Below are positions 28,014 through 40,543 of a stretch of DNA of 64,000 nt, one piece after another. A program made the position numbers and the translations under genes. This stretch comes from Planktomarina temperata RCA23 (GTDB lineage Bacteria; Pseudomonadota; Alphaproteobacteria; Rhodobacterales; Rhodobacteraceae). Below the pieces are notes generated by a model. The model did no database searches. It saw only the letters and a list, made by a program, of their open reading frames with translations, and was not told the origin of the DNA. Within the stretch, counting starts at the first letter, position 1, and each line of letters opens with the position of its first letter. The DNA lies in assembly GCF_000738435.1 (NCBI RefSeq), contig NZ_CP003984.1:1426001-1490000 (forward strand), in the 5' to 3' direction.

Positions 28014-29594
28014 GTGACACAGATGGAAGCTTCAATCGCCAAACAGCTGCATCTGCAGGCTTTGGCGCGGGTAGAGCAGGCCGCAGCGAAGGCTGCGCAA
28101 GGCGGCGGTGACGCGGCGCGAGCCCGCCATCTGGCGCGCGGAAAAATGTTGCCGCGGGACCGGGTTGCCAATCTCTTGGACCCCGGCAGCGCATTTTTAG
28201 AAGTTGGGGCCACCGCTGCCCATGGTATGTACGAGGGCGCGGCACCCTGCGCTGGGCTCATCACAGGTGTCGGCACAGTGCATGGACGCCAAGTTATGGT
28301 GATTTGCAATGATGCTACGGTGAAAGGCGGCACCTATTATCCGATGACCGTGAAAAAACATCTGCGTGCCCAAGAAATTGCCCAAGAGTGCCATCTGCCC
28401 GTGGTGTCTTTGGTCGATAGCGGCGGGGCGAATTTGCCCAACCAAGATGAGGTTTTCCCAGACAGGGATCATTTTGGCCGCATTTTTTATAATCAAGCTC
28501 AGATGTCTGCCAAAGGCTTGGCGCAGATTGCCGTGGTGATGGGGTCTTGCACGGCCGGGGGCGCCTATGTGCCGGCCATGGCGGATGTGTCGATTATCGT
28601 CAAAGAGCAGGGGACGATTTTTCTCGCGGGGCCGCCATTGGTCAAAGCGGCCATAGGCGAGGTGGTGTCTGCGGAAGACTTGGGCGGCGGAGATGTGCAC
28701 ACGCGCCTGTCGGGGGTCGCCGATTACTTGGCGGAAGATGACACCCATGCTCTGGCTCTGGCGCGTGAGGCGGTGCGCCACCTGCCAGCCGCTCCGCCCC
28801 AACCCGCCTTTGCGCCGGCGGGCGACGCGCAAGAGACTGGTATGGATGACATTTTTGATGTGATCCCGAGTGATTTAACCACGCCCTATGACATTCGCGA
28901 TGTGATCTGCCGGTTGACCGATGGCGGGGCGTTCGATGAATTTAAAGCGCGGTTTGGCACCACCTTGGTCACGGGGTTTGCACATATTGAGGGCATGCCG
29001 GTCGGCATTGTTGCCAATAATGGTGTGCTGTTTTCCGAGGCGGCGCAAAAGGGTGCGCATTTTGTTGAACTCTGCTCTCAACGCAAAACACCACTGATTT
29101 TCCTACAAAATATTACGGGATTTATGGTGGGACAAAAATATGAGAACGAAGGCATTGCGCGCCATGGGGCTAAAATGGTCACGGCGGTCGCCTGTACCTC
29201 TGTGCCGAAAATTACCATGATTGTCGGGGGCAGCTATGGGGCAGGCAACTACGGTATGGCAGGCCGCGCCTTTCAACCGCGGTTTTTATGGAGCTGGCCG
29301 ACATCGCGCACAGCCGTCATGGGGGGGGCGCAAGCGGCCGGCGTATTGGCCACGGTCAAACGTGATGCGATTGAGCGGGCGGGAGGCAGCTGGAGCGCCG
29401 CGCAAGAAGCCGCATTCAAACAGCCGACGCTTGAGATGTTTGAGACGCAATCCGATCCGCTCTACGCCAGCGCGCGATTGTGGGATGATGGGGTGATTGA
29501 TCCGAGGGACAGCCGCAAGGTCTTGGCTCTCTCCCTGCGCGCGGCTCTCAATGCCCCAATCGATGAAACAAAATTTGGCGTCTTTAGGATGTAA
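28014..29594 (+). CDS. mccB: Methylcrotonyl-CoA carboxylase, carboxyltransferase (beta) subunit
   Basis: Transfers CO2 from biotin to 3-methylcrotonyl-CoA, forming 3-methylglutaconyl-CoA. 526 aa with two crotonase-like halves: the N-terminal half has [19 protein letters not shown] and [19 protein letters not shown], the C-terminal half [30 protein letters not shown] and [22 protein letters not shown] is followed by the usual HGAKMV. The start is GTG 28014; ATG 28023 is also in frame. It works with the biotin subunit MccA encoded 470 bases downstream. Confidence 0.95.
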
Positions 29595-29598
29595 TGAT

Positions 29599-30069
29599 AT
29601 GCGAGATGAAACGACAGTGACGACCCAGCCGGACAGCTTTGGCCGCCATTGGGTCTATGTCACCGAGGCGCAGGTGCGCGGCCATGCCAAAGGGCGTTTT
29701 GGTCTGGCCATCTGGCTGATCTGCCTTTGGTTTGTTGCTGTTGGAGGCCTTGAGATTGTCCTGGGCAGCAGCGCCTCTCTGCCGCGCCTGGTCTTCGGAG
29801 CCGTGCTGTTTTTGACGGGTGCTGGCCTCGTGCTGCGCAATAGGTTGGCCTATCTGGCGGCCCTATTTGTGCCGATGATTTTTCTGATCCGCTTTTTCAG
29901 TGGGGCCTCGGGCTATGGGGGGCTGTTGAGCGGACCTGCGCAATACTACGATCTGTGCAACGCTTTGGTGGTTGTGGGGGGATGTTTCTATCTCTTTGAA
30001 GGGGATCGTCCCAACTTTATTTTCCGGCGGCGCTACCGCAGTTATCACGCTGAAAGCTTGCAGAAATGA
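29599..30069 (+). CDS. Small integral membrane protein within the leucine operon
   Basis: A 156-aa protein with a polar N-terminus (about 35 residues) and four hydrophobic segments (IWLICLWFVAVGGLEIV, LVFGAVLFLTGAGLVL, LAYLAALFVPMIFLIRFF, LCNALVVVGGCFYLF), ending in an Arg-rich cytosolic tail (FIFRRRYRSYH). I do not recognise the family. It sits between the two halves of methylcrotonyl-CoA carboxylase, four bases after mccB, and overlaps the mccA start (ATGA), so it is certainly co-expressed. It could be a transporter accessory or a membrane tether, but nothing in the sequence shows this. Confidence 0.78.
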   Translation: MRDETTVTTQPDSFGRHWVYVTEAQVRGHAKGRFGLAIWLICLWFVAVGGLEIVLGSSASLPRLVFGAVLFLTGAGLVLRNRLAYLAALFVPMIFLIRFFSGASGYGGLLSGPAQYYDLCNALVVVGGCFYLFEGDRPNFIFRRRYRSYHAESLQK

Positions 30070-31997
30070 TTCAAAAACTGCTGATTGCCAACCGCGGCGA
30101 AATTGCTTGCCGCATTGCCCGCTCTGCCCGGGAGATGGGAATTGCCACCCTGGCCATTGCCTCGGAGGCGGATGAAGAGGCGCTGCATGTGCAGTCTTGT
30201 GATGAGGCGGTGTATCTGGGCGGTCACAGCCCAGCTGAGAGCTATTTGCGCAGTGATGCGATTATCGCGGCGGCCCAAGAGCATGGCGCAGATGCCATCC
30301 ATCCGGGTTATGGGTTTCTGTCAGAAGATCCCGACTTTGCCCAAGCGGTGCAAGAGGCCGGCCTGATCTGGGTCGGCCCGCCCGCTGCGGCCATTCGGGC
30401 CATGGGGCTCAAGGATGCCGCAAAGGCTTTGATGCAAAAGGCCGGAGTTCCGATTGTGCCGGGATATCACGGCGAGACGCAGTCTTTGGAGCGGCTGCAA
30501 CAAGCCGCCGCAGAGATTGGCTATCCCGTGCTCATCAAGGCGGTGGCGGGCGGTGGCGGCAAAGGCATGCGCCGTGTCGACCGGCCTGAGGAGTTTGCGG
30601 CTCATCTGGCCTCGGCACAGTCAGAGGCGCAAGGCGCCTTTGGCAATGCGCGGGTGTTGATTGAAAAATTCATTGCCAACCCACGCCATATTGAAATCCA
30701 AGTGTTCGGTGATGGGCAGAAAGCTGTGCACCTCTATGAGCGGGATTGTTCTTTGCAACGCCGTCATCAAAAGGTGATTGAGGAGGCGCCTGCGCCGCAT
30801 ATGCCAAATGCGGTTCGCGACGCGATGGGGCGGGCGGCGGTGCGCGCCGCTCAGGCCATTGGTTACGCCAGCGCAGGCACGGTTGAGTTTATTGTGGATG
30901 GCAGCGACGCTCTGAACGAAGACAGCTTTTATTTCATGGAGATGAACACGCGATTACAGGTGGAGCACCCCGTCACCGAAGAGATTTTAGGCATAGACTT
31001 GGTGGCCTGGCAGCTGCAAGTTGCGGCGGGGGGGCTTTTGCCGCTGAAGCAAGATGAAATCCATGCGCAGGGTCACTCCATTGAGGCGCGGCTCTATGCC
31101 GAAGATTCCGCGCAGGGTTTTCTGCCTTCGATTGGCCAGTTGCATCATCTGAACTTTGGACCTGGATTGCGTGTGGAGACAGGCGTGGCGCAGGGTGGGC
31201 AGGTCACGCCCTATTATGATCCGATGATCGCAAAGCTTATCGCCACAGGCCCAGATCGTGCCAGCGCGCTCCGGCTGCTGCTGCGGGGCTTGAAATTGAC
31301 TCAAATCGCGGGTCTCAAGACCAATCGTGATTTTTTAATTGCGCTTCTGCAGCACGAGGATTTTGTGGCCGGCAGCTTTGATACAGGGTTGATCGCGCGT
31401 GATATGGAGGGGTTGACCCGCGCGCCGGTACCGGCTCCGGAAGATTGGGCAAGAGCGGCGCTTTGCGCCATGGGGCTGTTGGATACTGGCCGAGATCGGC
31501 AGGGTGATGCGGGTTTCACGCTGTTCACACCGCTGCGCCAAAGCCTGGCTTTGCGCTATCAAGATGAGCTGCAAACTGTGCATGTGAGCCTACGCCCTGG
31601 GGGGCAGACCGTGGTTGATGTGGCCGGGGAAATTTTTGAGCTGGGTCCGCGCACGCTATCGCAGCGGCCTGCGGTCTTGGCCGCTGGCAAAGCCTATCTC
31701 TTTGGTGAGCAAACTCTGGTGTTTGATGTGATTGATCCCTTGGAGCGTACCGCGACGGTTCAAAGCGATGGGGCGATCACAGCGCCGATGCCTGGCTTGG
31801 TCAAACAGGTTTTCGTGCGCGCGGGGCAAGAGGTTGCCGCTGGAGACCCGATTGTCGTGCTCGAAGCGATGAAAATGCAGCATACGCTTTGCGCCGATCA
31901 CGCGGGCCGCGTTGAAAACTTAACGGCGCGGCAAGATCAACAAGTGGATGCGGGTGTGGTTTTGGCTGTGATTGAAGCCGCACAGGAGGACGCGTGA
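30066..31997 (+). CDS. mccA: Methylcrotonyl-CoA carboxylase, biotin-containing (alpha) subunit
   Basis: Carboxylates its own biotin with bicarbonate and ATP. 643 aa. The biotin carboxylase domain (1-450) begins LLIANRGEIACRIARSA, with HPGYGFLSEDPDFA, the ATP-grasp Gly-rich loop GGGGKGMRRV and EMNTRLQVEHPVTEE. The C-terminal biotinyl domain (575-643) holds the biotin Lys in VLEAMKMQHTL. The start overlaps the preceding membrane-protein gene by four bases. BirA, encoded at 50.4 kb, would attach the biotin. Confidence 0.96.
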   Translation: MIQKLLIANRGEIACRIARSAREMGIATLAIASEADEEALHVQSCDEAVYLGGHSPAESYLRSDAIIAAAQEHGADAIHPGYGFLSEDPDFAQAVQEAGLIWVGPPAAAIRAMGLKDAAKALMQKAGVPIVPGYHGETQSLERLQQAAAEIGYPVLIKAVAGGGGKGMRRVDRPEEFAAHLASAQSEAQGAFGNARVLIEKFIANPRHIEIQVFGDGQKAVHLYERDCSLQRRHQKVIEEAPAPHMPNAVRDAMGRAAVRAAQAIGYASAGTVEFIVDGSDALNEDSFYFMEMNTRLQVEHPVTEEILGIDLVAWQLQVAAGGLLPLKQDEIHAQGHSIEARLYAEDSAQGFLPSIGQLHHLNFGPGLRVETGVAQGGQVTPYYDPMIAKLIATGPDRASALRLLLRGLKLTQIAGLKTNRDFLIALLQHEDFVAGSFDTGLIARDMEGLTRAPVPAPEDWARAALCAMGLLDTGRDRQGDAGFTLFTPLRQSLALRYQDELQTVHVSLRPGGQTVVDVAGEIFELGPRTLSQRPAVLAAGKAYLFGEQTLVFDVIDPLERTATVQSDGAITAPMPGLVKQVFVRAGQEVAAGDPIVVLEAMKMQHTLCADHAGRVENLTARQDQQVDAGVVLAVIEAAQEDA

Positions 31998-32887
31998 TGA
32001 GTAAGGCGGTGGAGATTTTTGAGGTTGGCCCGCGTGACGGGCTTCAAAATGAACCGGCCTTTATCTCCTCGGAGGATAAAATCGCCCTGACGCAGGCTTT
32101 GGCGGGCGCGGGCCTTCGGCGGATCGAATGCGCCAGTTTTGTCAGCCCCAAATGGGTGCCGCAAATGGCAGATGCGGCGCAGGTGGTTGAGGGGGTGACA
32201 CCCGGCGCGGCGCAGCTCTATGCTCTGGCCCCCAATAATCGGGGTTTGCAGGCGGCTTTGGCGACCCCGGTCGGGGGGCTTTGTGTGTTCATCGCGGCAA
32301 CCGAAGGTTTTAGCCGCGCCAATACGAATATTTCGCTCGCCGGGGCTGTGGAGCGCGTGCAAGACGTCATTGCGACATTCAGGGCTGAGGCGCCGGAGGG
32401 GGTGCGGCTGCGCGGTTATATTTCCTGCGTCACTGAATGCCCCTATGATGGGCCCGTCGCCCCCTCCGAAGTGGCCCGGCTTGCTGAGCTGCTGCATGGC
32501 GCGGGCTGTGACGAAATTTCCCTCGGCGACACCATAGGCACGGCCTATCCTGAGCAGGTGGCGCGCATGTTGGAGGCTGTGGTGCGGGTCGTGCCGGCCG
32601 AAGCATTGGCCGGTCATTATCATGATACTGCGGGACGGGCCTTGGCAAATATTGATGTGTCCCTCGACTATGGATTGCGGATTTTTGATGCCTCCATTGC
32701 TGGCTTGGGCGGCTGTCCCTATGCGCCTGGAGCGAAGGGCAATGTGGATACGGAATTGGTCTATGCCCATCTTATCGCCCGCGGATATGACATCTCTGGT
32801 GCGCCAGATCGCGCCGGATTGGCGCAGGCCGCGCGTTTGGCACGAAAAATTCTGGGACGCACAGAAGGCGCAATAGATGCAATTTGA
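31997..32887 (+). CDS. hmgL: Hydroxymethylglutaryl-CoA lyase
   Basis: Splits HMG-CoA to acetyl-CoA and acetoacetate, the final step of leucine breakdown. 296 aa TIM barrel. GPRDGLQNEP (catalytic Arg/Asp), ASFVSPKWVPQMAD, DTIGTAYPEQV, HYHDTAGRALANI (metal His pair) and GLGGCPYAPGAKGNV (catalytic Cys loop) are all present. ATG 31997 follows an AGGAGGA site and shares one base with the mccA stop; GTG 31994 is possible. It overlaps liuC by 11 bases. Confidence 0.95.
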   Translation: MSKAVEIFEVGPRDGLQNEPAFISSEDKIALTQALAGAGLRRIECASFVSPKWVPQMADAAQVVEGVTPGAAQLYALAPNNRGLQAALATPVGGLCVFIAATEGFSRANTNISLAGAVERVQDVIATFRAEAPEGVRLRGYISCVTECPYDGPVAPSEVARLAELLHGAGCDEISLGDTIGTAYPEQVARMLEAVVRVVPAEALAGHYHDTAGRALANIDVSLDYGLRIFDASIAGLGGCPYAPGAKGNVDTELVYAHLIARGYDISGAPDRAGLAQAARLARKILGRTEGAIDAI

Positions 32888-33662
32888 TACGATAGACAGC
32901 GCAACAGATGCACAAGGGGTCTGTACGGTTTGGTTGAACAGGCCCGAGAAACACAACGCCTTATCTGCTCAGATGATCGACGAGATGACCGAAATGGCCG
33001 CAAATTTGCGCCACAGTTCGGCGCGGGTCGTGGTTTTGGCCGCGCGCGGCAAGAGCTTTTGCGCCGGTGGAGATTTGCAATGGATGCAAGCGCAGATGCA
33101 GGCGGATCGTGCGACCCGGCAAGAAGGCGCGCGACGTCTTGCGGGGATGCTGCAGTCTTGGAACACACTGCCGCAGCCGGTGATCGGACGTCTTCACGGC
33201 AATGCCTTTGGCGGCGGGGTCGGGCTGGCCTCTATCTGTGACGTGGCCATTGGGGTTGAGAATGCTTGGATGGGGCTCACTGAAACCAAGCTTGGGCTGA
33301 TTCCGGCAACCATCGGTCCCTATGTGATTGCGCGCATGGGCGAGGCGGCGGCGCGGCGTGTGTTCATGTCTGCACGCAAGTTTTCTGCGCAAGAAGCGCA
33401 GAGCTTGGGGCTCTTGGCCAAGACCGTTGCCGAAGACGCGCTTGACCGGGCGGTGACGGCAGAGGTGACACCTTATTTAAGCTGTGCTCCGGGGGCCGTG
33501 GCCGCGGCGAAAAAATTGGCGCGCGCCCTGGGTCCGGTCATTGACGCGCAGACCATTGAAATGACGGTCACAGCTTTGATTGCGCAATGGGAAAGCCCAG
33601 AGGCGGAGGAGGGAATTGCCGCCTTCTTCCAAAAATCTGCGCCAAGCTGGCAGGCCCGTTGA
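32877..33662 (+). CDS. liuC: Enoyl-CoA hydratase, probable methylglutaconyl-CoA hydratase
   Basis: A crotonase of 261 aa. Oxyanion-hole segments are ARGKSFCAGGDLQWM and GNAFGGGVGLASICDVAIG; TETKLGLIPATIGPYV is typical of methylglutaconyl-CoA hydratases, and FMSARKFSAQEAQSLGL follows. Position as last gene of ivd-mccB-mccA-hmgL supports the hydration of 3-methylglutaconyl-CoA to HMG-CoA. The pathway from isovaleryl-CoA to acetoacetate is therefore complete in this operon. A weak AT-rich stem-loop (33664-33692) follows the stop codon. Confidence 0.92.
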   Translation: MQFDTIDSATDAQGVCTVWLNRPEKHNALSAQMIDEMTEMAANLRHSSARVVVLAARGKSFCAGGDLQWMQAQMQADRATRQEGARRLAGMLQSWNTLPQPVIGRLHGNAFGGGVGLASICDVAIGVENAWMGLTETKLGLIPATIGPYVIARMGEAAARRVFMSARKFSAQEAQSLGLLAKTVAEDALDRAVTAEVTPYLSCAPGAVAAAKKLARALGPVIDAQTIEMTVTALIAQWESPEAEEGIAAFFQKSAPSWQAR

Positions 33663-34681: not shown

Positions 34682-34888
34682 ATGAAAGTTGAGCTTGGTT
34701 CGGTTGTATATCTAAAGAGTGGTGGTCCGTTGATGACTGTGGAAGAATTGGGTGAACATGCGGATGCGCGCTGCGCGTGGTTTGTTGATTTGGCAGTCCA
34801 ACGCGAATGGTTCGCGTTGGCAGCATTGCAGCCTCAGGATCCGCCGAAAGCCGGCGTCGCCTCTCCTGCAAAGAAAGTTGTGAAATGA
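34682..34888 (+). CDS. DUF2158-like small protein inserted between nuoB and nuoC
   Basis: A 68-aa cytosolic protein ([42 protein letters not shown]) matching the DUF2158/YodC-type fold, a small beta-barrel of unknown role normally not tied to complex I. It lies four bases after nuoB and overlaps the nuoC start (ATGA), so it is made together with the peripheral-arm subunits. Function unknown; it might be an assembly helper, by position only. Confidence 0.8.
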
Positions 34889-35496
34889 CACAGGCGTTAC
34901 AAGAATTGGGTGCGTTGATTGCATCAAAACGGCCCGATTGCGTGCTGTCCTATGATGTAAGTTTTGACGAGCTGACCATTGAAGTCGCGCCGTCCAATAT
35001 CGTTGGGTTGGTTGATTTTCTGAAGTCCAACCGCAACTGCCGCTTTTCGACTTTGGTGGATATCACAGCGGTGGATTATCCGGGCCGCGAGAAACGCTTT
35101 GACGTCGTGTATCATTTGCTCAGCATGTATCAGAACCACCGGGTGCGCTTGCGGGCCTCTGTGCGGGCCGATGACATGGTGGCCTCGATCGTAGAGGTGC
35201 ACCCTTCGGCAAATTGGTTCGAGCGTGAAATATTCGATATGTTTGGCATCCTCTTTTCTGGCCACCCGGATCTGCGCAGATTGCTGACCGATTACGGCTT
35301 TCGCGGCCATCCGCTGCGCAAAGATTTTCCAACCAGCGGCTATACGGAACTGCGCTATGACGAGGCTGAAAAGCGTGTGGTCTATGAGCCCGTGTCCTTG
35401 GTGCAAGAATACCGTCAATTCGACTTTATGTCTCCTTGGGAGGGGGCAAAATATGTGCTGCCGGGTGACGAGAAAACTGATGGGGCCAAGGGGTAA
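34885..35496 (+). CDS. nuoC: NADH-quinone oxidoreductase subunit C
   Basis: A 203-aa peripheral-arm subunit (30 kDa type). Family signature [31 protein letters not shown] is clearly present in pieces ([23 protein letters not shown]), with [15 protein letters not shown] after it. The frame runs open upstream, but MTQALQELG at ATG 34885 is the family-type start and is coupled to the preceding small gene. nuoC and nuoD are separate genes here, and a foreign-looking sulfotransferase lies between them. Confidence 0.96.
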
Positions 35497-35499
35497 GCT

Positions 35500-36396
35500 A
35501 TGGCGGATCCGACACTTTTGATCTGCGTGGGAGCGACGAAGGCGGGAACGTCTTGGATGTATCGCTATTTGCATGATCATGCGGCGTGTCATGTGCGGTC
35601 TGTTAAGGAATGTCATTATTTTTCAAAATTTAATCCTAAGAAATTAATGCGCCAGCTGAAGGTTTTGGACCGTCTTGTGGTGCAATATGAGGCGCGTCTG
35701 ATTGAGGTTGAAGCTGCGGATGATATCATCCGCATTCTCAGCTTGAGCCGCCGGATTGATGATACCAAAGCGCTGATCATGGCGCTTTCGGCAGAGCGCA
35801 GTGACGATTCCGCCTATTTGGAGTATCTGCAGGCTGGGCGTATGGATGAGACGGTCTTGCTTGACGTCACGCCGGCCTATGCTTTGCTTGAGCCCACAGA
35901 GATTGCCCGTATTTCAGCGCTGCCTATTCGCGTAAAGCTGCAATATCTGATGCGCGATCCGCTGGAGCGTCTGTTGTCGCATGTGCGCATGGTGGCCAAA
36001 CGCAGTATGAAAGAGGGGCAGGATTTCTTGCTCACCTGCCAAGATATCTTACAGCGCGTTTTATACAAACAAGAAGAGGCGCATATCGTGATACGGGGCG
36101 ATTATAAGTCGAATATCTCGCGCTTTGCCTCCGTCTTCGATCACTCGCAGTTTCAGATCGGCTTTTCGGAAAATTTGCAGGACGGCCCCAAGTTTGACGC
36201 CATGTGTTCCTATTGGGGGATCGAAGCGATAAGCCCCAGCCAGATCAAGCGCGCGCATGTGGGCCTTGCGGCGCCTTTTCCTGAAGGCCTGCGTCGGGAC
36301 ACTTTGGAGTTTTTAAAGGCGCAATACGACTTTGTTGCTGATAATTTCGCGGAACTGCCGGAGAATTGGCGGAAAAATCGGGAGTTGCTGGCGTGA
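35500..36396 (+). CDS. Sulfotransferase-like protein inserted between nuoC and nuoD
   Basis: A 298-aa cytosolic protein. The N-terminal [19 protein letters not shown] matches the PAPS 5'-phosphosulfate loop (KAGTSW). [16 protein letters not shown], near residue 150, matches the 3'-phosphate motif (RDPxERxxSHY). YALLEPTEI and the C-terminal LREFxxP-like end ([17 protein letters not shown]) also fit. The middle (residues 55-95) is a helical insertion. It starts three bases after nuoC and ends 49 bases before nuoD, in the same direction. Complex I has no known sulfated component, so this is probably cargo or a link to a cell-surface sulfation route. The acceptor is unknown. Confidence 0.8.
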
Positions 36397-36445
36397 TACT
36401 ACAGATCATCATCGGCCAAAACTTTGGCCAAGAAGGAGGTGCATA

Positions 36446-37657
36446 ATGGACGGCTCCAAATTTGACGACGCTTTGACCGGCGAGCAAAAGATTCGCAATT
36501 TCAATATCAACTTCGGTCCACAGCACCCGGCGGCGCATGGTGTGTTGCGTTTGGTGCTGGAATTGGACGGCGAGATTGTCGAGCGCTGCGATCCGCATAT
36601 TGGACTGTTGCACCGTGGCACGGAAAAGCTGATGGAAAGCCGGACCTATCTGCAAAACTTGCCCTATTTTGACCGGCTTGATTATGTGGCGCCAATGAAC
36701 CAGGAGCACGCATGGTGTTTGGCGATTGAAAAACTCACCGGCACTGTAGTGCCGCGCCGCGCCAGCCTGATCCGGGTGCTCTATTGTGAAATTGGCCGCG
36801 TGCTCAACCATTTGCTCAATGTCACGACCCAGGCGATGGATGTGGGGGCGATGACGCCTTTGACCTGGGGATTTGAAGAGCGCGAAAAGCTGATGATCTT
36901 TTATGAGCGGGCCTGCGGTGCGCGTCTCCATGCGGCCTATTTCCGCCCAGGCGGGGTGCATCAAGATCTGCCTGATGCTCTGATCAATGACATCGAAGAA
37001 TGGGCCCAGAGCTTCCCAGCGGTTTTGCAAGACATCGATACGATGTTGACAGAAAATCGGATTTTCAAGCAGCGTAACGCAGATATTGGCGTTGTGACAG
37101 AAGACGACATTCAGAAATATGGTTTTAGTGGCGTTATGGTGCGCGGTTCTGGCTTTGCCTGGGATTTGCGCCGGGCGCAGCCCTATGAATGCTATGACGA
37201 GTTTAAATTCGACATTCCTGTTGGCAAGAATGGAGATTGTTATGATCGCTATTTGTGCCGCATGGAGGAAATGCGTCAATCCGTGTCGATCATCAAACAG
37301 GCCATTGGTAAATTGCGCGAGGAGCCCGGAGATGTCATGGCGCGCGGAAAAATGACCCCGCCAAAACGCGGTGAGATGAAACAGTCGATGGAAGCTTTGA
37401 TCCACCACTTCAAACTTTACACCGAGGGTTTCCATGTTCCCGAGGGCGAAGTCTATGCGGCTGTTGAAGCGCCAAAGGGTGAGTTTGGGGTGTATCTGGT
37501 CGCAGATGGCACGAATAAACCCTATCGCAGCAAGATAAGGGCACCGGGCTTTTTGCACCTGCAAGCGATGGATCACCTGTGCAAAGGGCACCAGCTGGCA
37601 GATGTGGCGGCAATCATTGGCACGATGGATGTGGTCTTTGGAGAGATTGACCGATGA
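36446..37657 (+). CDS. nuoD: NADH-quinone oxidoreductase subunit D
   Basis: The 49-kDa-type subunit (403 aa) forming the quinone pocket with Nuo[23 protein letters not shown] (in part), [30 protein letters not shown] and the C-terminal DVVFGEIDR are hallmarks. A textbook Shine-Dalgarno (AAGGAGGT at 36433-36440) sits before ATG 36446; the longer frame from 36332 belongs to the sulfotransferase overlap and is rejected. The strong site suits a gene that restarts translation after an inserted cistron. A 65-base gap with no feature follows. Confidence 0.97.
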
Positions 37658-38576: not shown

Positions 38577-38804
38577 ATGCACAGCGAAAAAGATCATATC
38601 CAAGCCAAGAAAGGCCGGACAGCTAGTCTGGTCATCGCCGGTGCGATACTGATTTGGCTTGCCATGCAATGGGCCGCTGTGCAGCTTGATATTTCCAGCC
38701 GTTACATGCTGTTGCTGGATTTGGCCGTTATGGCTGCGATGGTTTGGTCACTTATTGTCACTTTTCAAATTTGGCGTGCGCGCCGCGATGCAGATAAAGG
38801 CTAA
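38577..38804 (+). CDS. DUF5337-like small membrane protein between nuoE and nuoF
   Basis: A 75-aa protein with a charged N-terminus, two hydrophobic helices ([40 protein letters not shown]) and a basic tail ([10 protein letters not shown]). It matches the DUF5337 family that I associate with Rhodobacteraceae nuo operons. It ends five bases before nuoF and must be co-transcribed. It is a candidate accessory or assembly membrane protein of complex I, by position. Confidence 0.82.
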
Positions 38805-40108: not shown

Positions 40109-40543
40109 ATGACCCTGATCGCTTCATATCCTGCTGACATGCGCATCACGCTGAAGGCCGTTGCCTTTGCGCTGTGCTGTGTGCCGGCGCCGGCTATTGC
40201 CGCGAAGGGTTTGGCGCATGAGGTCGAGATCAACGAAGGGCTGATTGCGATTTCTATGGCCAATGTGGTCCGTGAAACCTGTCCTAGTATCTCTGCACGG
40301 CTGCTGAGGGCTTGGTTTTACATTACATCACTTGAGGCAGAGGCTCGATCGCTCGGCTATTCGCCGCAAGAGGTGAGTGCCTTTGTTAAAGATCCTGTGG
40401 AAAAAAGTCGTGTTCTGAGCATTGCTCAAAAGCGACTTGCAGATCATGGGGTTATCCCTGACCAACCCGCGACCTATTGCACCTTTGGGCTTGCTGAAAT
40501 TCAAGCAGGCTCTGCGATCGGAAAATTGCTGAAAGCGAATTAG
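40109..40543 (+). CDS. DUF5333-like exported protein between nuoF and nuoG
   Basis: A 144-aa protein with a signal peptide whose core is [19 protein letters not shown], cleavage after AIA. The mature part has two cysteines ([15 protein letters not shown]), likely a disulfide. It belongs to the DUF5333 group that I know from Rhodobacteraceae nuo operons. ATG 40109 lies three bases after nuoF; ATG 40139 would give a more usual signal peptide. It ends two bases before nuoG. A periplasmic protein co-made with a cytosol-facing enzyme is unexpected and unexplained. Confidence 0.78.

Follow-up and report, generated by a model that had tools for sequence, protein, structure and literature searches.

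The window analysed here is a 64,000-nucleotide stretch of the Planktomarina temperata RCA23 genome, and within it a gene for a PAPS-type sulfotransferase (ST) lies on the forward strand at positions 35500–36396, an intact frame of 298 aa running from ATG to TGA. It is flanked on the same strand by two complex I genes, with nuoC, encoding the 30 kDa subunit, upstream (34885–35496; PF00329, 157 bits) and nuoD, encoding the 49 kDa subunit, downstream (36446–37657; PF00346, 401.6 bits). The ATG of the ST stands 3 nt past the nuoC stop and its own stop codon 49 nt ahead of nuoD. The first-pass annotation had described a complete ST frame with both PAPS motifs between nuoC and nuoD and in the same direction, a description borne out by the open reading frame and its Pfam-typed neighbours. 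A small accessory gene of the DUF2158 (YodC-like) family stands between nuoB and nuoC (34682–34888, forward strand; PF09926, 39.2 bits, above the cut-off), and a DUF5337 gene between nuoE and nuoF (38577–38804) and a DUF5333 gene between nuoF and nuoG (40109–40543) are further non-subunit genes in the nuo operon of the window. These three resemble the ST in being non-subunit genes inside the operon but are small and without predicted enzyme activity, whereas the ST is a full enzyme domain. No description of an ST inside a nuo operon was found in the open-access literature searched, although subscription papers and record annotations may mention one. Upstream of nuo, at 28014–33662, the open reading frames read as an acyl-CoA carboxylase pair with HMG-CoA-lyase-like and enoyl-CoA-hydratase-like genes, as in leucine breakdown.

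The base composition of the ST (GC 0.517, GC3 0.602) is near that of nuoC (0.529, 0.623) and nuoD (0.531, 0.611) and gives no sign of foreign origin. A phage origin was likewise considered, and the phage collection gave no match. Among plasmids, nine records carry distant relatives of the ST, at 25–29% identity.

Family, fold and active site

The window protein matches two Pfam families beneath their curated cut-offs, Sulfotransfer_3 (E 4.9e-4, 20.9 bits, cut-off 27) and Sulfotransfer_1 (E 6e-4, 19.7 bits, cut-off 22), and 72 of 74 relatives match Sulfotransfer_3 at E <= 0.001. A profile of the 74 relatives reaches solved sulfotransferases, including that of Alicyclobacillus acidocaldarius (PDB 3rnl, E 2.1e-17) and the heparan sulfate 3-O-sulfotransferase 3-OST-3 (E 6.8e-8). 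NCBIfam gave no match for the window protein, and one relative among the 74 matches NoeE, the nodulation sulfotransferase (E 1.2e-5). Two PHROGs matches, at E 0.055 and 0.21, are weak and carry no known function. The AlphaFold2 model has a mean pLDDT of 92.6 and a pTM of 0.89, and all 31 Foldseek matches in the PDB with E <= 0.001 are sulfotransferases. By VIA-align the predicted fold lies closest to the NDST1 domain, the 3-OSTs and 3rnl (Z 17.4–18.4), with the curacin and olefin synthase sulfotransferase domains as the next step down (Z 13.2–13.9), followed by TPST (Z 11.6–12.2), the cytosolic SULTs (Z about 10–11) and the mycobacterial Stf1 and Stf9 (Z 9.8–9.9). With profile and predicted fold in agreement, the predicted kind of protein, a sulfotransferase, is not in doubt. 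A tyrosylprotein ST is less likely, given the less close fold, with Z about 12 for TPST versus 18 for the glycan-type folds.

The A. acidocaldarius enzyme is both the top sequence match of the profile and among the top folds (Z 18.0), and its GAAKCGTS and KEAHFF segments align with the window ST, although the two proteins share just 19–20% identity. The 3-OSTs and the NDST1 domain align across 225–238 residues, and the KELHYFD segment of the window ST aligns with AEPHFFD of 3-OST-3, the Glu of which is the catalytic base. The heparan sulfate 3-OSTs and NDSTs are animal Golgi enzymes that act on heparan sulfate, whereas no signal peptide is visible by eye in the window ST. We use the term glycan-type for likeness of predicted fold to these enzymes and claim no membership; likeness of fold does not tell which acceptor is used.

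Conservation was followed across 162 distinct ST sequences from nuoC–nuoD junctions. The 5'-phosphosulfate loop, GATKAGTSW in the window, retains K14 in 154 and both G16 and T17 in 160 of them, and the 3'-phosphate site residues R152 and S160 are each kept in 160. In the K-E-x-H segment the counts are 160 for K36, 161 for E37 and 149 for H39, while P125, Y127, P154 and Y276 are invariant. K14, E37, R152 and S160 occur together in 151/162 sequences, the window copy among them; it has L159 at a position where W stands in 152/162. The phosphosulfate loop, the 3'-phosphate site and the predicted fold together point to a PAPS-dependent sulfotransferase, which would be catalytically active.

A source of PAPS is at hand. 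The P. temperata genome has one APS kinase match, in the same frame as an ATP-sulfurylase-like part, which reads as a fusion of the two. Absence of a PAPS route, which the first-pass annotation had named as a refuting result, is thereby ruled out. Across 80 genomes of our own choosing, an APS kinase match was found in 46/48 ST-bearing and 32/32 ST-less genomes (the match in G070 being weak, at 22.8 bits), and its presence in both therefore does not discriminate between them.

Distribution and position

The family is taken here as Rhodobacteraceae in the broad sense, with genomes drawn almost one per genus. A profile of nine nuo-located copies matches 173/394 family genomes at E <= 1e-15, non-nuo relatives included. 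In a class-wide draw 10/385 genomes match, three of them in the same family; the other seven matches have no nuo genes within their 1.5-kb flanks, one of these (L314) lying at a contig start. For a survey independent of the ST, nuoD was located in 141/149 family genomes, eight having no nuoD match, and with G064, G083, G103 and G151 set aside (junction cut off or unfetched) this gave 137 complete nuoC–nuoD junctions. An intact ST is present at 28 of these, a broken one at two (G123, G068) and a remnant at one (G108), and 106 have none. The gap at these 106 is <=60 nt in 49, 61–300 nt in 32 and >300 nt in 25; ST remnants in ST-less gaps of >60 nt were clear in G108 only, with a faint match in G131 (E 0.021). 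The synteny of nuoC–nuoD junctions had been put forward as a test of whether the gene is a strain-specific insertion, and with 28/137 junctions occupied this origin is ruled out, the more so with the named relatives described below.

Named relatives, the best 80 of at least 487 confirmed ones as ranked by likeness to the window protein, show the order nuoC–ST–nuoD on one strand in 79 cases, the exception being L265. Their genera include Planktomarina, Yoonia, Loktanella, Marivivens, Rhodovulum, Pseudorhodobacter, Pacificibacter and Oceaniglobus. Spacing in these 79 loci is close, with a median of 4 nt from the ST stop to the nuoD start (<=60 nt in 77/79) and a median of 6 nt from the nuoC stop to the ST start (<=25 nt in 50/79, a count that includes three values, -900, -900 and -197, that are stop-finding artefacts). 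Tandem ST pairs occupy the junction in 3/79. When ST domains covering at least 240 profile positions were pooled and identical ones dropped (239 to 199, with four G006/G007 loci omitted), 162 lay at nuoC–nuoD, 33 elsewhere, three elsewhere in or beside nuo and one at a contig edge. The junction share falls with score, from 132/134 at >=250 bits to 11/21 at 150–200 bits and 4/21 at 100–150 bits. The named set gives the fairer figure because the pool mixes loci fetched by nuoD with loci fetched by the ST.

Elsewhere by nuo, STs stand between nuoB and nuoC in G112 and G295 and divergently beside nuoA in G162 (loci L166, L342 and L171). G082 has a close ST on another contig, with no nuo genes within 1.6 kb, and its own nuoC–nuoD gap is 18 nt. 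Further occurrences were noted by reading or annotation. At L012 (700–2385) an ST relative lies in one 561-aa frame behind a part that by eye resembles an alpha/beta hydrolase, and on the Sulfitobacter plasmid NC_019364.1 (match H1) the gene matching this frame is annotated alpha/beta hydrolase. In P. temperata itself, genome positions 2633771–2634421 (L021) read as a large TPR-like protein whose C-terminal part is a sulfotransferase domain, and an ORF close by reads as integrase-like.

Phylogeny

A FastTree phylogeny was built from 116 of the 199 pooled sequences, comprising 79 of the 162 junction sequences and all 37 others. Its main group holds 60 junction rows, one edge row and two others (support 85), with an inner group of 55 rows (support 95). 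A second group contains 10 junction rows out of 11 (support 96), among them several upstream partners of the tandem pairs, and the remaining nine junction rows lie dispersed among STs from outside nuo. To explain the junction label, this tree requires 9 changes versus 31.6 in shuffles. The G162 copy falls among STs from outside nuo, which suggests that it arrived separately; the G295 copy clusters with junction copies, and its place may reflect no more than a move within the operon.

A phylogeny of the ST had also been suggested in the first-pass annotation as a check, and its answer is mixed. For 66 of 72 named loci, those with nuoB, nuoC and nuoD and a distinct junction ST, distances in the ST and nuoBCD trees are correlated (Mantel r 0.61, with 0/2000 permutations as high; Spearman 0.37), 31/66 loci have an identical nearest neighbour in both trees, and the nuo tree also contains 16/24 supported ST splits. 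The ST thus partly tracks nuo, but 6/24 supported splits conflict with supported nuo splits, and with agreement only partial some exchange is likely. On the nuoBCD tree of the 137 junctions, which is weakly resolved, presence of the ST (28 intact, two broken and one remnant pooled) changes 23 times, at least six of these forced by supported branches. In our reading the ST settled here long ago, was lost many times and was exchanged to some extent; repeated gains may also have occurred.

Selection and decay

Ratios of dN/dS, calculated with a Nei-Gojobori script and including several saturated dS values above 1, are 0.087–0.303 for the ST in 11 Planktomarina pairs and 0.065–0.335 in 15 pairs of other genera. 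In the same two sets of pairs nuoC gives 0.021–0.066 and 0–0.184, and nuoD 0.019–0.036 and 0.006–0.115; the neighbouring DUF2158 gene is as relaxed as the ST (0 to 0.386). The ST is therefore under purifying selection, as judged from 26 pairs. Within Planktomarina, however, it is decaying. The copy in G007 is a pseudogene with frameshifts and stops, and G018 keeps both gene ends around an internal deletion, its 5' piece scoring 48 against G000 (best of 500 shuffles 38) and 44 against G007 (best shuffle 37), and its 3' piece 54 (33) and 63 (34), respectively. The PAPS site is substituted in G003 (R152N) and G001 (K14E). Alignment of seven ST-less Planktomarina gaps gave no signal above shuffles in five, and G009 shares just the stretch ahead of nuoD. 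In view of the pseudogene, the deletion and the PAPS-site changes, the enzyme may be idle in this genus.

A model for the sulfotransferase of the complex I operon

We propose, with a probability of about 0.55, that the ST is a PAPS-dependent enzyme of glycan-type (heparan N-/3-O-sulfotransferase-like) fold and a long-resident, dispensable accessory gene of the complex I operon that acts on a glycan-like acceptor. The model draws on what was computed, namely where the gene lies and how closely it is spaced, its motifs and predicted fold, the purifying selection on it, its inheritance in part along with nuo, and the source of PAPS. Translation of the ST is probably coupled to that of the complex I genes, and with putative co-transcription from nuo this would tie its dose to complex I and to growth. 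In the cytosol the enzyme would take up PAPS, held by K14 and the R152/S160 site, and with E37 as the putative catalytic base it would sulfate a hydroxyl or amino group. The acceptor is most likely a sugar-containing envelope precursor or similar, rather than complex I itself. Among the flanks of non-nuo relatives, 2/54 scanned ORFs (of 83 extracted) match glycosyltransferase family 2, and the first 25 of 41 families listed give no consistent pathway as a clue to the substrate. Being useful but dispensable, the gene would often be lost, as is now seen in Planktomarina. Were the ST to act on the envelope, it would represent growth-linked sulfation in abundant marine bacteria, by an enzyme of sulfate transfer that sits inside the well-studied complex I operon at about a fifth of the surveyed family junctions (28/137).

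The nuoC–nuoD junction may instead simply be permissive, the ST being one insert among many, retained for a benefit of its own or for no nuo-linked reason, a reading that we consider doubtful. Gaps exceed 60 nt at 57/106 ST-less junctions, and many of these hold unrelated ORFs, which form clusters of 30 (a small membrane protein), 12 (Lumazine_bd_2/SnoaL-like) and 6 (GFA-like), as at L066, L140 and L126. Long gaps are also found at other nuo junctions of the named loci, those above 150 nt numbering 13/74 at nuoA–nuoB, 12/76 at nuoB–nuoC, 49/75 at nuoD–nuoE and 47/47 at nuoE–nuoF, where the figure includes unaligned nuoE tails. These gaps and alternative ORFs favour a permissive operon and weigh most against a special role in respiration, and the decay in Planktomarina would also suit a passenger. 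However, a mere passenger sits poorly with purifying selection, with the retention of active-site residues and with a main ST clade found almost exclusively at one junction. One of the inserts seen elsewhere in the operon is a CHASE4-GGDEF diguanylate cyclase gene lying antisense between nuoA and nuoB (L239, 510–1934, minus strand), which belongs to a cluster of seven ORFs in the named loci.

A direct link to respiration, in which the ST sulfates a respiratory-chain component, whether a hydroxylated quinone or its precursor, a subunit of complex I or a bound lipid, and co-expression is the point of the arrangement, is unlikely. It would account for the strict position and close spacing, for the STs elsewhere in or beside nuo and for the tandem pairs, and it has a precedent in Stf3, a sulfotransferase that acts on a respiratory quinone by sulfating menaquinone in Mycobacterium tuberculosis (PMC7404182), although the stf3 gene adjoins a P450 gene and is not inside nuo. 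Stf3 is absent among the 50 fold matches listed for the window ST, which alone carries no weight. Against such a link, the predicted fold is nearer to the glycan STs than to the solved mycobacterial Stf1 and Stf9 or to TPST, and G082 keeps its close ST away from nuo. Furthermore, a supernumerary subunit should be present wherever this complex I is, whereas the complex I genes stand without an ST at 106/137 junctions. The more specific proposal of a lineage-wide ST, closely spaced and probably co-translated with complex I subunits, that modifies a respiratory quinone, lipid or subunit such that PAPS supply sets or tags electron entry, is less probable again. Should the respiratory chain prove to be the target, this would be a new kind of control, and with the gene inside nuo in many relatives the idea that respiration and sulfation are linked can be tested. 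The first-pass annotation had offered a choice between cargo and an undescribed respiration-sulfation link; neither of the refuting results named there appeared, the gene standing at 28/137 junctions with a tree that partly tracks nuo, and a PAPS route being present, but no result identifies complex I or respiration as the target.

It is very unlikely that in P. temperata itself the gene is a functionless relic in the course of being lost. The loss series within Planktomarina, the L159 replacement and the faster evolution of the ST relative to nuoC and nuoD would fit a relic, but the window copy retains K14, E37, R152 and S160, and its dN/dS is 0.087 versus its nearest relative G004, 0.102 versus G002 and 0.112 versus G003.

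Ribosome site and hairpin ahead of nuoD

Ahead of nuoD the window has a strong Shine-Dalgarno sequence, AAGGAGGTG, at 36433–36441 on the forward strand, with an anti-SD duplex energy of -13.0. The first-pass annotation had found this site unusually strong, as if to restart translation after the ST. Its strength is real, as it ranks first among the 101 of 137 junctions that could be scored (the others lack a start codon where one was inferred) and among 16 scored sites of the window, of which those for nuoI and nuoJ are not real start codons. Its connection with the ST did not hold up, since ST-bearing junctions have a median of -6.55 (n=26) versus -7.8 for ST-less ones (n=75; one-sided p 0.99), and ST-less Planktomarina members have nuoD sites of -6.3 to -11.8. 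As the ST-bearing junctions are not stronger as a group, restart after the ST is unsupported and does not hold as a general rule. A short hairpin with a GGCCAA/TTGGCC stem (36414–36429, forward strand) lies after the ST stop and ahead of this site. Different yet paired stems occur in G000, G007 and G011 and in the ST-less G018 (L008, L007, L219), and the hairpin is possibly a conserved mRNA element.
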